Shown here: in pieces, positions 47,675-63,626 of the stretch
Numbering within the stretch: position 1 is the stretch's first letter
Layout of the letters: every line of letters starts with the position of its first letter
Assembly: GCA_900299005.1 (NCBI GenBank)
Contig: OMID01000025.1
Span: forward strand, 1 to 64,000
Direction: 5' to 3'
From: Oxalobacteraceae bacterium
GTDB taxonomy: Bacteria > Pseudomonadota > Gammaproteobacteria > Burkholderiales > Burkholderiaceae_D
DNA length: 64,000 bases
Position numbers and translations under genes: made by a program
Notes under the pieces: generated by a model
The model's input: the letters and a program-made list of their open reading frames with translations, nothing else
Databases searched by the model: none
What the model was told of the DNA's origin: nothing

Positions 47675-47759
47675 TGGTGCCGACGGCGAGACTCGAACTC
47701 GCACAGCTTGCGCCACTACCCCCTCAAGATAGCGTGTCTACCAATTTCACCACGTCGGC
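47675..47759 (-). tRNA. tRNA-Leu (anticodon GAG)
   Basis: The minus strand gives an 85-nt class II tRNA. GCCGACG pairs with CGTCGGC, the D-arm is TGGTGAAATTGGTAGACA, the anticodon loop CTTGAGG has GAG, a long variable arm follows, the T-arm is GAGTTCGAGTCTC, and CCA is encoded. It sits between secG and nuoA, a placement common in Proteobacteria. Confidence 0.96.
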
Positions 47760-53912: not shown

Positions 53913-55457
53913 TCAGAGCTGCGGATTGAGCTTCTCTGTCTTGGAATACAGCTTGTTGAGCGCGGAGAGATAGGCCTTTGCAGATGCCACCACGATATCC
54001 AGATCAGCCCCAACCCCGTTGACGATACGTCCATTGCGCGACAAGCGCATCGTGACCTCGCCCTGTGACTGAGTGCCCGTGGTAATCGCATTGACCGAGA
54101 ATAGCAATAGCTCCGCGCCGCTCTTGACGTCGGTCTCTATCGCGTTGACGATCGCATCCACCGGACCATTCCCCTGCCCTTCGCCCGTGACTTCTTTTCC
54201 CTCGACAGCAAAAGTGATTTTTGCTGCGGGTTTTTCACCCGTCTCGGAGTGCTGCGACAGCGATACAAACTGATAGTGTTCTCGCTCGTGCGACTGCTGC
54301 TCGTCCGACACCAGCGCCATGATGTCTTCATCGAAGATGTCTGACTTGCGGTCTGCGAGTTCCTTGAAACGCGCGAACGCGGCGTTGATTTCGGTTTCGG
54401 AGTCGAGCGCAATACCCAGCTCTTCAAGACGCTGCTTGAACGCGTTTCGTCCGGAGAGCTTGCCAAGAACGATCTTGTTCGCAGTCCAGCCCACATCTTC
54501 AGCGCGCATGATTTCGTAAGTGTCACGCGCCTTCAGGATGCCATCCTGATGGATGCCCGATGCATGAGCAAAGGCGTTTGCGCCCACCACGGCTTTGTTT
54601 GGCTGCACCGCAAACCCGGTGATCTGGGAGACCAGTTTCGAGGTTGGCACGATTTGCGCTGTGTCGATGCCTACCTCGAGCTTGAAATGGTCCTTGCGTG
54701 TGCGCACTGCCATGACAATCTCTTCGAGCGCGGTGTTACCGGCGCGCTCACCCAGACCATTGATCGTGCATTCGACCTGACGCGCACCGCCGATCATCAC
54801 ACCGGCCAGCGAGTTGGCAACCGCCATTCCCAGGTCGTTGTGACAGTGGACCGACCAGACGGCCTTGTCCGAGTTGGGGATGCGCTCGCGCAGTGTCCTG
54901 AGCAGATTGCCATAGAGTTCGGGCACGCCATAGCCAACGGTGTCGGCAAGATTAATCGTGGTAGCACCTTCCTTGATCACCGCTTCCAGCACTCGGCACA
55001 GGAAATCCACATCCGACCGGCTGCCGTCTTCAGGACTGAACTCCACATCATCAGTGAACTGGCGGGCGAAGCGCACCGCCAGCTTGGCTTGCTCAAACAC
55101 CTGATCAGGCGACATCCGCAGCTTCTTTTCCATGTGCAAAGGCGATGTCGCAATGAAGGTGTGAATACGCTTGCGCGGAGCCGCAGCCAGCGCCTCGGCG
55201 GCTCGGGAGATGTCCTTGTCGTTGGCTCGAGAGAGTGAGCAAACGACCGAATCCCTCACAATGCCGGCAATAGCCTTGATCGCCTCGAAGTCACCCGGGG
55301 ATGAGGCTGCAAAGCCGGCCTCGATGACATCCACCTTGAGTCGCTCCAGCTGGCGTGCGATGCGGATTTTTTCATCCTTGGTCATCGATGCTCCCGGCGA
55401 CTGCTCGCCATCGCGTAACGTGGTGTCGAAAATTATCAGCTTGTTCGAGTCGGCCAT
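53913..55457 (-). CDS. leuA: 2-isopropylmalate synthase
   Basis: LeuA condenses acetyl-CoA with 2-oxoisovalerate, the first committed step of leucine synthesis, and is feedback-inhibited by leucine. The 514 residues have the HMGL-like TIM barrel ([18 protein letters not shown] at the N-terminus with metal and catalytic residues, [17 protein letters not shown], and [12 protein letters not shown]) and the C-terminal LeuA regulatory domain (about 390-505). It is preceded by a leucine-rich leader peptide 110 bases upstream. The ilvBHC genes that make its substrate lie 6 kb away on the same strand. Confidence 0.97.
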
Positions 55458-55566
55458 CTGGGGCTCCTGAGGTTAATGCCGGATGAAGATATATTTTCAC
55501 CCGCCCGGGCTATCCTTGCCTGAGCTTGGAAAAACACGAATTGTGGGGAATGAGGTGTCTGCGCGG
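55458..55566 (-). promoter_or_regulatory. leuA 5' leader between leader peptide and leuA
   Basis: This RNA stretch follows the leader peptide. A stem CTGCGC/GCGCAG (55559-55575) overlaps the end of the peptide gene. A weak ACAC/GTGT pairing followed by TTTTT lies near 55525-55545. No strong intrinsic terminator is visible, so the control mechanism, if attenuation, is not the textbook type or needs folding software to see. Confidence 0.4.
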
Positions 55567-55644
55567 TCAGCGCAGTAGGTACAGCAGCAGACCGAAAGGG
55601 CTGCTGGCGCGGAGGTAGGCGGTGCTGAAGAATGCGCTTGACAT
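55567..55644 (-). CDS. leuL: leuA leader peptide (leucine-rich, 25 residues)
   Basis: An ATG at 55644 opens a 25-codon frame that ends in TGA at 55567, 109 bases before leuA. The peptide begins MSSAFFSTAYLRASS and ends FGLLLYLLR, with leucine codons CTG CTG CTG, TAC, CTA, CTG close to the stop. A stem CAGCAG/CTGCTG (55585-55606) covers these codons. Ribosome stalling at scarce leucyl-tRNA would change folding downstream, as in classical amino-acid attenuation. No Shine-Dalgarno is present, but the predicted transcript begins at the ATG itself, which fits leaderless translation. The gene symbol is assigned by function and position, not by homology. Confidence 0.7.
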   Translation of the reverse strand: MSSAFFSTAYLRASSPFGLLLYLLR

Positions 55645-55651
55645 GAGGCAA

Positions 55652-55680
55652 AGAATAAGGGGATTTCGCGAAAAGCGCAA
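55652..55680 (-). promoter_or_regulatory. leuA promoter
   Basis: The minus strand reads TTGCGC (55680-55675), 17 bases, then TATTCT (55657-55652). The leader-peptide ATG starts 7 bases beyond the -10 element, so transcription and translation appear to begin together. The remaining 80 bases to pssA show a GC hairpin (CTATCG/CGATAG around 55692-55709) and nothing else. Confidence 0.65.
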
Positions 55681-55759
55681 CTCGGGGGGGCTATCGTGCC
55701 GATAGCGTCGGGCCGGTTGCTCTCGGCCGGCGGTCTTCGGTGTCACCCGCCTTGCGCAG

Positions 55760-58016: not shown

Positions 58017-59810
58017 ATGATGCCTTTTGTGCGGCCAATTTATTATCAAACATCGTTTCAAGCCATCGAGGTCTATAAAAAATCCTGCAATGATCCTGCT
58101 ACGGATTTGACTATTACTTCATCGGGCAATGTTCGTCTGGCGACCCTGTTTGAGCGAGCCGCTCACTCGATCTACGATTTTTTGGGGACTTGCTCCCCAG
58201 AGCAGCGTAGAGAGAAGGCAAAACAAGTAATCAAAGAAAAATTTGCCTCTGAAATAGATACCCTCACAAAAAAATCAATGAAAAATATAGCCGCAACCAT
58301 GGATACAGTGGTTGATGATCTCATCTCCAGCAAAAACCTGAATCAACTCAGCTCAACGATTAACAAATCAGAAGTTGCATCAAGCTTGGCATATCTTAAA
58401 GAACTGCATTCCAAAAAATATTCTGAGGAGCACACTCGTATCGCTTGGCGGGCTACCCAAGAACTTTTCGCCAGCAGAAGGGATGTCACCGATGAAAACC
58501 AAACGCAAGAAGCAGCCTTGGCAATGCGGGTTGCAGATCTCTACCTCGCCTGGAAAACCGAGCCTCATCTTGGAGAAAGAGCCGCTTACCGACTAGCCTT
58601 TAACGCTGCAGTACTCATGGATAAATACGATCTGAACGATTCAGCAGCAAGACAAGTTTTAGCACTTTCAGGCCGACTTCAATCTCGTCTTGGCATTGAC
58701 AAAGATTTGTCACTACAAATGGCACTTGCTTTTCAGGAACAACCCGACCAACTTAATTTCGATGCTGAAAAATTATTTAAAACATGTGTAAAAACTACTT
58801 TTGCCGTGAATGAAAATACGGCTGATCAGATCATGCAAAAAGCAAGTCTTTTAAAAAAGAATGATCAGCTAAACTTTTTATCCACCACACAGCTCCTCGA
58901 AATTTCAAAGCTGATTGTAGCTAAAAACAAACCTCAAAATGAGGCTGTTCTCATTTCTCTTGAGGCAGGTATCCTGAAGCGTGATGCTCTGGTTAATCGA
59001 GACGAGCTACTCGCCGAAAAAGGGCGGCTACTTGACCAAAAAATCAAACAAGATTTCGAGAGTTTGTTACCCGCTGACTGGCCAGATGCATGGGAACTGC
59101 TACCCAACGGCTCACGGCGATTGAAAGAAAGTGAATTTTTCCAAAATGAATATATTGAATTTGTTACCGACAGCTTCGAAAAGACAACAATTAACGAAGC
59201 CGAAGGACTCGCCAAGGAATTTTTGGCGGACGCAGGAGGATCAAAGTTTAAATTCGGTGAAGGAAAAAATGGCGTCAAAGTGGATACGGATGATATCCAA
59301 GTCAAAAACCAGCTTCGCTCTCTTGTGCCAGATCCTGAAGCACGAAAAAATCTCAGCCGCGCATTATTTCAGGCTGGAGGTAATGGTTTTGTTGCAGCGA
59401 TGACATTGGGCTTATCACAAAGTGAAACGAAACGCTTTTTGCCGCTCAGTTTGAACCTCAGAGGCAGCTCAATGAACGCAGCTACAGAACAATGGATTTC
59501 CGTACAGCGTACAGATAATAATAAAATCCGAGTGGGTTATACAGTTTTCATGAAACACTTCTCGTTATCCAATATAACCGATGGCAGCCAAATCCCGATC
59601 AATCCAAACCATGATCCCAGCGCTCCATCTAGCGCCGATGACCACACTGCGAAAGCAACTAGCTTGATTGAGTTTGACCTCGAACAACTCAACAAGGGCA
59701 TTACTGATCCTCAGTGGGTACGTAAGCCGGAATTAACTCTTTTGATTGAATTGGACCGCACAAGTCACATCAACAACCTGTTAGCAACGAAATTAGAGGA
59801 TTTGCCGTAA
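58017..59810 (+). CDS. AT-rich orphan protein of unknown function (597 residues)
   Basis: A long uninterrupted frame whose codons are far more AT-rich than its neighbours; for example 23 of 60 bases are G or C in 58861-58920. The protein is soluble, with no signal peptide or membrane segment. Residues 40-410 look mostly alpha-helical, with many Lys, Glu, Gln and Leu and possible coiled-coil stretches. From about 445 it appears beta-rich (GNGFVAAMTLGLSQ, FLPLSLNLRGSSMN, KIRVGYTVFMKHFS). No motif I know is visible. The start ATGATG has no ribosome-binding site and follows an imperfect inverted repeat (GTTGA/TCAAC, about 57990-58009). A foreign origin is inferred. An effector-like role is one guess among several. 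Confidence 0.75.
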   Translation: MMPFVRPIYYQTSFQAIEVYKKSCNDPATDLTITSSGNVRLATLFERAAHSIYDFLGTCSPEQRREKAKQVIKEKFASEIDTLTKKSMKNIAATMDTVVDDLISSKNLNQLSSTINKSEVASSLAYLKELHSKKYSEEHTRIAWRATQELFASRRDVTDENQTQEAALAMRVADLYLAWKTEPHLGERAAYRLAFNAAVLMDKYDLNDSAARQVLALSGRLQSRLGIDKDLSLQMALAFQEQPDQLNFDAEKLFKTCVKTTFAVNENTADQIMQKASLLKKNDQLNFLSTTQLLEISKLIVAKNKPQNEAVLISLEAGILKRDALVNRDELLAEKGRLLDQKIKQDFESLLPADWPDAWELLPNGSRRLKESEFFQNEYIEFVTDSFEKTTINEAEGLAKEFLADAGGSKFKFGEGKNGVKVDTDDIQVKNQLRSLVPDPEARKNLSRALFQAGGNGFVAAMTLGLSQSETKRFLPLSLNLRGSSMNAATEQWISVQRTDNNKIRVGYTVFMKHFSLSNITDGSQIPINPNHDPSAPSSADDHTAKATSLIEFDLEQLNKGITDPQWVRKPELTLLIELDRTSHINNLLATKLEDLP

Positions 59811-60048: not shown

Positions 60049-61092
<1,044 letters not shown>

Positions 61093-61605: not shown

Positions 61606-63320
61606 CACAGATCCTCCGAGCCGAGAAGCATTTCGGTCAGACCCTTGCCTGCCTTGACCATCGGCCACACGTTTTCATCTCGATCGGTGATGAAATTCAT
61701 GAACACCAGCTTGTCTTTCATTGCAAACGCATCGCGCATGGACCCGTCTACATCGCCCGGTTTGGTAATCGTCATGCCAACATGTCCGAAGGATTCGACC
61801 AGCTTGTCGAAATCCGGGAGCGAATCCATGTACGACTCAGAGTAACGAGAACCATAGTCGATTTGCTGCCATTGCCGCACCATACCAAGATAACGGTTGT
61901 TAAGCAGAATGATCTTCGGTGTGAGGTGATACTGCTTACAAGTTGCCAATTCCTGAATGCACATCTGGATGGAAGCTTCGCCCGTGATGCAAGCGACTTC
62001 AGCACCCGGATTGGCCATCTGAACACCCATCGCGTAAGGCAGACCGACGCCCATGGTGCCCAGTCCACCAGAGTTGATCCAACGGCGCGGTTTGTCAAAG
62101 CCGTAGTATTGGGCAGCCCACATCTGGTGCTGACCAACATCGGAGGTGACGAACGCATCGCCCCGGGTGACCTCCCACAACTTCTCGACCACGGCCTGGG
62201 GTTTAATGACGTCGTTGGAAGCCGGATACTTCAGGCATTCACGGCCACGCCATTCAGCAATCTGCTTCCACCAGGCGTCGATGGCTTTAGCATTTGGCTT
62301 GATCTCGGAGGCCTCTATCTGGGACAGTACCTCTGTGAGCACGTCTCTGACGTTGCCAACAATGGGAATGTCCACCTTCACGCGCTTGGAGATCGACGAT
62401 GGGTCGATATCGATGTGAATGATCTTGCGAGGGACAGTGCCAAAGTGCTTGGGGTTGCCGATCACGCGATCATCAAAGCGGGCGCCAATCGCAATGAGTA
62501 CATCACAATGCTGCATGGCCATGTTTGCTTCATACGTGCCATGCATGCCCAGCATCCCAACGAATTTGTCGCTGGAGGCACGGTAACCGCCTAGGCCCAT
62601 CAGCGTGTTCGTGCATGGGTAGCCGAGCTTGTCGACCAGCGCATTCACCTCAGGCGCGGCATCGGCAAGGATGACGCCGCCGCCAGTGTAGATCATTGGA
62701 CGTTCAGCCGAGAGCAGCAGCTGCACTGCCTTGCGGATTTGGCCAGCGTGGCCTTTCTCTGCGGGCTTGTATGATCGCATCTCGACTTCTTTGGGATAGT
62801 CGTATGTCGTTTTGGCGACCGTGATGTCCTTGGGAATATCGACCAGCACCGGACCGGGCCGGCCCGTTTGGGCGATATAAAAAGCTTTCTTCATGATCGA
62901 GGCCAGCTCTTTGACGTCCTTGACCAAAAAGTTGTGCTTCACGCAGGGCCGGGTGATGCCGACGGTATCGCACTCCTGGAAGGCATCCTGACCAATCGCA
63001 TGGGTTGGGACCTGTCCGGTGATGACCACCATCGGGATGGAATCCATGTGCGCCGTGGCTAGACCAGTGACCGCATTGGTCACGCCGGGCCCGGACGTCA
63101 CAAGTGCCACACCGACTTTGTTGGAGCTACGAGAATAGGCATCTGCCGCATGGATCGCCGCCTGTTCATGACGAACCAGGACATGCTGGAATTTGTCCTG
63201 CTTGAAGATCGCATCGTAGATGTAGAGGACGGCGCCGCCGGGATAGCCGAACACGTGCTCGACGCCCTCTTCGGCAAGACAGCGCACGACGATATCGGCG
63301 CCGGTGATTTCGGAACTCAT
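61605..63320 (-). CDS. ilvB: acetolactate synthase large (catalytic) subunit
   Basis: A thiamine-diphosphate enzyme that joins two pyruvates, or pyruvate and 2-oxobutyrate, in the first common step of branched-chain amino-acid synthesis. The 571 residues have the catalytic glutamate in VRHEQAAIHAADAY, a FAD-binding middle domain, and the ThDP motif in CITGEASIQMCIQEL ending in LLNNRYLGMVRQW. The motif reads GEAS where most enzymes have GDGS, a conservative Glu-for-Asp change plus Ala for Gly. It heads the ilvBHC operon. The start ATG 63320 has the ribosome-binding site AAAGGAAG. Confidence 0.97.
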   Translation of the reverse strand: MSSEITGADIVVRCLAEEGVEHVFGYPGGAVLYIYDAIFKQDKFQHVLVRHEQAAIHAADAYSRSSNKVGVALVTSGPGVTNAVTGLATAHMDSIPMVVITGQVPTHAIGQDAFQECDTVGITRPCVKHNFLVKDVKELASIMKKAFYIAQTGRPGPVLVDIPKDITVAKTTYDYPKEVEMRSYKPAEKGHAGQIRKAVQLLLSAERPMIYTGGGVILADAAPEVNALVDKLGYPCTNTLMGLGGYRASSDKFVGMLGMHGTYEANMAMQHCDVLIAIGARFDDRVIGNPKHFGTVPRKIIHIDIDPSSISKRVKVDIPIVGNVRDVLTEVLSQIEASEIKPNAKAIDAWWKQIAEWRGRECLKYPASNDVIKPQAVVEKLWEVTRGDAFVTSDVGQHQMWAAQYYGFDKPRRWINSGGLGTMGVGLPYAMGVQMANPGAEVACITGEASIQMCIQELATCKQYHLTPKIILLNNRYLGMVRQWQQIDYGSRYSESYMDSLPDFDKLVESFGHVGMTITKPGDVDGSMRDAFAMKDKLVFMNFITDRDENVWPMVKAGKGLTEMLLGSEDL

Positions 63321-63606: not shown

Positions 63607-63626
63607 CCCCTCGCTGTGGCGAGGGG
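63607..63626 (-). promoter_or_regulatory. terminator-like hairpin at the 5' end of the ilvB transcript
   Basis: On the minus strand CCCCTCGC (63626-63619), loop CACA, and GCGAGGGG (63614-63607) are followed by TA and six T. No other minus-strand gene lies upstream, so it belongs to the ilvB leader. If transcription starts further upstream it is an attenuator; from the promoter at 63633 it would form the very 5' end. Confidence 0.65.

Follow-up and report, generated by a model that had tools for sequence, protein, structure and literature searches.

The interval between pssA and leuA is predicted to encode a leucine leader peptide that is leaderless and adjusts leuA to the supply of leucine, a reading to which we assign a probability of roughly 0.78. 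The DNA analysed, called the window here, is 64,000 nucleotides long, and all features of the locus lie on its minus strand. The putative controlled gene, leuA (53913-55457), is predicted to encode 2-isopropylmalate synthase based on two NCBIfam models, NF002087 and TIGR00973, that both match above cut-off. An AGGAG Shine-Dalgarno sequence can be read in front of it at 55464-55468. Directly upstream and in the same direction is pssA (56629-55760), identified with NCBIfam. Between the two genes there is a promoter with the -35 element TTGCGC (55675-55680), a spacer of 17 nt and the -10 element TATTCT (55652-55657), the end of which is 7 nt from the ATG (55644) of an apparently leaderless open reading frame, MSSAFFSTAYLRASSPFGLLLYLLR (55567-55644). 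This frame has 25 codons and a TGA (55569-55567) and is followed by 109 nt up to the leuA ATG at 55457. The original prediction had described the frame and its distance from leuA, with leucine at five of the last seven sense codons (CTG CTG CTG TAC CTA CTG CGC) and the promoter ahead of it. On re-reading, all coordinates of the frame were correct, the codons were confirmed in the sequence and the promoter was found at its place with the 7-nt gap. The frame had also been said to lack a Shine-Dalgarno sequence, and there is indeed no AGGA, GGAG or GAGG motif of this kind ahead of the leader ATG.

Alignment of loci from the same genus was based on 15 upstream stretches from 21 genomes; in the other six genomes leuA was missing or broken, or no stretch was taken. 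The predicted regulatory stretch, CTG CTG CTG TAC CTA CTG (55573-55590), contains five leucine codons, and the codons at positions -8, -7, -6, -4 and -3 from the stop encode leucine in all 15 loci. At positions -8 to -6 the codons CTG, CTA, TTG, CTC and CTT replace one another synonymously. The codon at -4, a position outside the stem H2 described below, is CTA in 15/15 loci; CTA is rare, making up 9 of the 251 leucine codons across eight genes of the window. The N-terminal half of the leader is variable even within the genus, the in-frame gaps being multiples of three, and the peptide of the window ends in ...SPFGLLLYLLR. This pattern is the signature of a leader peptide in which, judged from conservation, the end of the peptide matters and not the whole. 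Loss of the frame and of its leucine codons in close relatives had been named beforehand as evidence that would count against the prediction; both are retained in 15/15 same-genus loci, together with the promoter and a gap of 6-7 nt. The same pattern bears on the idea that the peptide acts in trans and that its leucine-rich tail is not a sensor. There is a precedent in S. meliloti, where peTrpL is also encoded by a leaderless frame and works in trans according to the available part of PMC7298713, but in the genus examined here it is the terminal leucine codons that are conserved and not the N-terminal half, and we consider action in trans very improbable.

The promoter geometry suggests where the transcript would begin. 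Because the gap between the -10 element and the ATG is 7 nt, we infer that +1 falls on the A of the ATG or one base upstream. The -35 element reads TTGC(G/A)C in 17/17 near relatives. A generic promoter scan omits this promoter, since the threshold of the scan is 9/12 matches and the leader promoter has 7. The combined pattern TTGC-N18..20-TATNNT-N6..7-ATG occurs once in the window, with 0.09 occurrences expected, and eight times genome-wide; of the seven other genome matches, 600 bases of one locus (L243) were read and held nothing informative.

Leaderless initiation was assessed across relatives with frames defined by leucine content alone, the most upstream ATG and the best promoter within 60 nt, which yielded 94 of 234 loci. 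The -10 element sits 6-8 nt ahead of the leader ATG in 59 of these 94 loci, a spacing seen at 6.5% of control ATGs (n = 629) and 4.7% of leuA ATGs (n = 234). A Shine-Dalgarno-like motif was found ahead of 0/94 leader ATGs and ahead of 85% of leuA ATGs. The best promoter falls outside 5-9 nt in 29 of the 94 leucine-rich frames. Some of these 29 are artefacts of the most-upstream-ATG rule (for example L007, L028 and L037), and three other loci, L063, L129 and L150, have a promoter gap of 20-29 nt and may have a real short 5' UTR. As far as promoter spacing can tell, leaderlessness is prevalent, and it is neither obligatory nor universal.

Upstream of the leader promoter is an inverted repeat, CTATCGTGCCGATAG (CTATC-N5-GATAG; 55691-55705), centred at -54 from the ATG. 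The form CTATC-N5-RATAG is present, centred at -54/-55, in 13/15 same-genus loci (it is missing in L004 and L010) and in 0/2 near relatives outside the genus. Its fixed place independently fixes the position of the promoter, and it is probably an operator. A regulon search with the repeat in its own genome returned one further site with one mismatch and nothing else. The repeat can also be read as T-N11-A.

These data can be set against the possibility that the leader peptide is real and the main mRNA is not leaderless, being produced by read-through from pssA or from another upstream promoter. The position and direction of pssA would allow this, and the promoters of L063, L129 and L150 seemingly lie well ahead of the ATG. 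Against it stand the near tenfold enrichment of the 6-8 nt spacing over control ATGs and the fixed position of the inverted repeat; moreover, no Shine-Dalgarno-like motif precedes the leader ATGs, and behind a long 5' UTR the frame would therefore lack a ribosome-binding site. We regard an upstream origin of the main mRNA as decidedly unlikely and favor a start at or next to the leader ATG.

We examined how widely this arrangement occurs by searching for LeuA in 56 relative genomes, 200 genomes of the order, 140 of the class and the named GTDB genomes (best 80 of 591 loci). Upstream stretches came from 115 loci of the relatives and the order, 40 of the class and 80 of the named genomes (best 80 of 591), with L053 excluded for too little upstream sequence. 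The fixed criterion applied to the resulting 234 loci called for an ATG frame of 12-60 codons with at least four leucines in the last 12, and for a TAnnnT -10 element ending 5-10 nt before the ATG, with the -10 and -35 elements together scoring at least 7/12. It was passed by 16/17 near relatives, 46/97 other loci of the order, 19/40 loci of the class outside the order and 18/80 named-genome loci (best 80 of 591). The exception among the near relatives is L002, in which frame and promoter are present but the -10 element reads TACTCT. The total is 99/234 real loci, 80 of the 234 being the best 80 of 591 named loci; control sets gave 3/2340 dinucleotide shuffles and 0/234 reverse complements. 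The loci are phylogenetically related, and these counts are not independent.

These controls also address the possibility that promoter, frame and stems coincide by chance. Leucine-rich frames arise easily in GC-rich DNA, and the fold of the whole leader is only modestly better than that of shuffles (z -1.1, with 26/200 shuffles equally stable), but real loci pass the criterion far more often than shuffled or reverse-complemented ones, and the probability of a coincidence is negligible.

The criterion was failed by 51/97 other loci of the order and 62/80 named loci (best 80 of 591), including those of Collimonas, Massilia, Janthinobacterium, Variovorax and Comamonas. The LeuA closest to that of the window is from Collimonas (88%, among the best 80 of 591 named-genome loci), and the Collimonas leuA locus itself fails. 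Roughly half of the sampled order is without the leader, in part because of the criterion and in part genuinely. In L017-L021, leuA appears by eye to lie directly behind a pssA-like gene. The original prediction had called the design unusual. The layout is not peculiar to this genome, being common in the order and the class.

Two further sets of leaders were preselected. One contains 69 'good' leaders from L001-L115, chosen with a score that included the promoter, with L051 removed and L063 added by hand. The other contains 28 Gammaproteobacteria chosen by score, among which L211 shows the LLLRGAR ending of betaproteobacteria. Counts backed by controls come from the fixed criterion (234 loci) and from the promoter test based on leucine content only (94 loci).

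The leader RNA is predicted to form hairpins over the leucine codons, at the stop codon and between the stop codon and leuA. The first two, H1 (55582-55606), which covers the first leucine codons, and H2 (55559-55575; CUGCGC-UGACC-GCGCAG), which has the stop codon in its loop, had been proposed in the original prediction, and both are in the minimum free energy fold. Only the inner three pairs of H1 are retained in the consensus of 17 sequences, which also contains H2. In the 17 near relatives, 97.1% of the cells of H2 are paired, and because 5/6 of its pairs are invariant this helix is without covariation. The third hairpin, H3 (55503-55525; GCUC-A-GGC...GCC-C-GGGC), has 98.3% of its cells paired in the same relatives, with changes on both sides in 5/7 pairs. 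The covariation score of H2 and H3 was reached by 0/500 shuffles, which do not keep relatedness, and the count of further pair types in the two helices was not above that of shuffles (157/500). A helix at the stop codon at or above the 95th percentile of shuffles was found in 15/17 near relatives, 16/28 Gammaproteobacteria and 17/50 other beta leaders. Thus, H2 around the stop codon is not universal. The mean z for stability of the region after the stop was -1.38 in the 17 near relatives and -0.87 in 49 other beta loci; for an upstream control stretch it was -0.66 and -0.34, respectively.

H3 is followed by GGGTGAAAATAT and has no U tract behind it. A terminator scan of the window found no intrinsic terminator with a U tract between the leader ORF and leuA, in agreement with the original statement that no strong one exists. 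The 17-sequence alignment fold contained no conserved pairing in the genus that would compete with H3. A 4-bp CUGA:UCAG antiterminator for H3, seen by eye in some members of the genus, was discarded, being lost in L005 and L006, and sequestration of the leuA Shine-Dalgarno sequence by H3 (GCUC:GAGC) was likewise set aside, as these 4 bp were seen by eye in some members only. The motif CAATTCG is present in 16/67 beta leaders and was rejected as a universal motif on that count. It occurs within 45 nt after the leader stop in L024, L025, L032, L046, L052, L067, L076, L085, L093 and members of the genus of the window, and is unpaired in the genus fold.

The missing U-tract terminator in this clade would also fit control of leuA translation by the leader, with stalling exposing or masking the ribosome-binding site of leuA, a model discussed for the actinobacterial LEU element. 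On average across 66 beta loci, accessibility of the Shine-Dalgarno region is lower in the free leader (0.40) than in the stalled state (0.45; p 0.016 uncorrected), an effect that is small and from statistics that ignore kinship. However, the stalled and at-stop states did not differ (p 0.67, in a test in which the positive controls for termination failed), and there is no conserved pairing between the leucine codons and the Shine-Dalgarno sequence in the genus alignment, where no pair between the leucine run and the leuA Shine-Dalgarno sequence exceeds 0.15 in the 17-sequence fold. We consider translation control unlikely. Simulated ribosome positions had no clear effect on H3 (p 0.28); as the U-tract positive controls failed too, this simulation was given no weight.

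In other relatives the leader is accompanied by a terminator. By eye we selected 17 loci with a U tract, mostly from Comamonadaceae, the family to which we take the loci of Limnohabitans, Polaromonas, Rhodoferax and Acidovorax to belong. A script finds a GC-rich hairpin with a U tract in 16/17 of these loci, and in the 17th, L168, it was found by eye. TAnnnT lies 6-8 nt ahead of the ATG in 16/17 loci, and TG occupies the extended -10 position in 14/17. Only L162, L168, L170, L175, L042 and L043 pass the fixed criterion, the rest having a weak -35 element. For all 16 scripted terminators, the end of the ORF contains a stretch of at least 5 nt that is able to pair with the 5' arm; in 10 of the 16 the stretch, ACGGGC or a near match to it, stops exactly 11 nt short of the end of the stop codon, as would be expected of a classical antiterminator. 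Compared with shuffled ORF ends, the match was above the mean in 17/17 loci, with p<0.05 in 0/17 and p<0.2 in 10. An antiterminator strand within the ORF is probable in these relatives on the basis of these matches: the strand would be covered by a ribosome at the stop codon, whereas with the ribosome at the leucine codons it would be exposed and could block the terminator. The loci of Variovorax, Comamonas, Ottowia and Pseudacidovorax fail the fixed criterion, showing that the U-tract leader is not in all Comamonadaceae. A U-tract terminator was likewise found in L042 and L043 (genomes of 1.7-1.9 Mb), whose ORFs contain a GGGGC strand. In L035 a short TTTT comes after a hairpin of very high stability, but the frame is leucine-poor and fails the fixed criterion.

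The leader of the window could act as follows. An internal promoter between pssA and leuA would start the RNA at the AUG or within 1-2 bases of it. Ribosomes would bind at the 5' end, unaided by a Shine-Dalgarno sequence, and reach CUG CUG CUG UAC CUA CUG just ahead of the stop codon. When charged tRNA-Leu is scarce, the ribosome would stall at this leucine run; when it is plentiful, the ribosome would arrive at the stop codon inside H2 and leave. The position of the ribosome would alter the downstream RNA and in this way set the output of leuA. On the sequence comparisons it is very likely that ribosome stalling at the leucine codons controls leuA, and we infer the whole course of transcript start at the AUG, leaderless translation and stalling.

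The output step may be premature termination of transcription with the help of a factor, for which Rho, binding in the interval between H2 and H3, is the most likely candidate. We favor factor-dependent termination in the clade of the window because there is no U-tract terminator here and the similar leaders of sister lineages have a transcription terminator at this place. The interval (55526-55558, with ACAATTCG) is C-rich and G-poor by base composition, both in the window and in loci of the genus, where the 40 nt after the stop have on average 41% C and 14% G (15 same-genus loci). The leader ORF is also C-rich in the genus (37% C, 21% G), and an excess of C over G downstream of the stop is likewise seen in 94% of the 18 loci of the U-tract group and in 71% of 28 Gammaproteobacteria. 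As an argument for Rho, base composition is suggestive, not discriminating.

The layout in Gammaproteobacteria is typically TTGGCA-17-TATAGT, a gap of 6-8 nt, the ATG, a peptide ending in ...LLSLRLLP and a CUGCC..GGCAG helix whose loop contains the stop codon. In many of them this helix is followed by CCUGGCGAGG-N-AAACGC. GCGAG occurs within 75 nt of the stop codon in 13/28 Gammaproteobacteria, 7/17 near relatives and 1/49 other beta loci. A longer sequence, CCTGGCGAGG, is found after the leader stop in L117, L118, L121, L124, L126, L130, L138, L144, L151 and L204 and is mostly followed by N-AAACGC or similar. This element has a 3-bp stem with a constant UGGCGA loop, could form a GCG:CGC pseudoknot and is without an Rfam match. 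We tentatively suggest, at less than even odds, that a leaderless leucine leader is ancestral to Beta- and Gammaproteobacteria, in many of which it would still control leuA with no intrinsic terminator involved (H2 holding the stop codon, then the conserved H3 or, in many Gammaproteobacteria, CCUGGCGAGG-N-AAACGC) and use a different output of leader-peptide sensing, through Rho or an unknown factor, and that the U-tract attenuators arose secondarily in lineages such as Comamonadaceae.

Other parts of the window contain further features. A tRNA-Leu with the anticodon GAG is located at 47675-47759 (minus strand), about 6 kb downstream of leuA. A terminator-like hairpin, CCCCTCGCCACAGCGAGGGG-TATTTTTT (63607-63626, minus strand), lies about 290 nt ahead of the gene at 63320, read as ilvB from the sequence. 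It could mark where an upstream unit ends or serve as an attenuator; by eye, no leader frame with isoleucine, valine or leucine codons was seen near it. On the opposite strand, a frame of 597 aa (58017-59810, plus strand) is situated between psd and the gene at 61065..60049, read as ilvC. It has no NCBIfam match and matches Pfam only below threshold (E 0.16), and is perhaps an insertion into the cluster.

Leader-peptide attenuation is usually taught with a frame led by a Shine-Dalgarno sequence and with a U-tract terminator. If leaderless leucine sensing at leuA is common in Beta- and Gammaproteobacteria, leaderless initiation would feed a basic metabolic switch, and leucine sensing would be tied to conditions that favor leaderless translation. 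It would also offer a natural and widely replicated system for studying the coupling between RNA polymerase and a ribosome that sits on a 5' AUG. Because no U-tract terminator is present, the output step can be tested directly. A likely meaning is thereby given to a stretch that has no Rfam entry: no Rfam family, Leu_leader included, matches the leader region, the Rfam searches gave only sub-threshold hits or tRNAs, and none of the Rfam leader families was found in 30 related loci.

The classical counterpart is the attenuator of the enterobacterial leu operon (leuL), which has a short ORF with a run of leucine codons before leuA, CUA codons, and stems near the leucine codons and the stop. The ORF of the window similarly has its leucine run directly before leuA, a CUA codon and stems near the leucine codons and the stop; unlike leuL, it is predicted to have no 5' UTR and has neither a Shine-Dalgarno sequence nor a U-tract terminator. 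Among the relatives with U-tract terminators, L163-L166, L168-L171, L173, L178, L181 and L233 share with it a leucine-rich frame and, except for L173 in the scripted search, TAnnnT 6-8 nt before the ATG. They differ in having terminators of the GCCCGU...CGGGC-UUUU type, with an antiterminator strand that their ORFs probably contain, and in most cases an extended -10 element in place of a good -35 element, whereas the clade of the window is without the terminator.

Among leucine leaders described in the literature, LeuL of Campylobacter jejuni is 28 aa long, has five rare C-terminal leucine codons, precedes leuABCD and was detected by ribosome profiling (PMC3847290, PMC11955535). In the available parts of these papers it was found through a small-ORF search that required a ribosome-binding site, its RNA ends shortly after the stop codon, and it is not reported as leaderless. 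The actinobacterial LEU element consists of a uORF with leucine codons before leuA and, in the part of PMC1262725 available, has no intrinsic terminator. Its leucine run pairs with the leuA Shine-Dalgarno sequence, and a pseudoknot has been proposed (PMC1262725); the clade of the window has no such conserved pairing.

For the leaderless start, the closest counterpart is trpL of S. meliloti (rnTrpL/peTrpL), whose leader RNA has its 5' end at the ATG of the leader ORF according to the available part of PMC7298713. In both leaders the last part of the ORF encodes the amino acid that is the end product, and the start predicted for the window is likewise at the AUG. The S. meliloti leader is alphaproteobacterial, uses tryptophan instead of leucine codons and is drawn with a transcription terminator in that part of the paper, whereas the clade of the window has no intrinsic one. 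The original prediction had called a leader without a 5' UTR and without an obvious strong intrinsic terminator an unusual design. Sequence geometry and conservation support a leaderless start here, and the S. meliloti example shows that leaderless leader peptides were already known. Studies of transcription start sites in Burkholderia cenocepacia and Cupriavidus metallidurans report leaderless genes (PMC4603805; PMC7563307), and the terms 'leuA' and 'attenuat' do not occur in the main texts of these two papers. Neither a premature-terminator survey (PMC2965389) nor an RNA-seq study of gonococci (PMC3032703) mentions, in the available parts, a leader of this kind. Among the matches listed for papers outside subscription, none described a leaderless leucine leader of Beta- or Gammaproteobacteria. 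Leaderless leader peptides and leucine leader peptides are each known separately, and their combination in Beta- and Gammaproteobacteria is apparently new.
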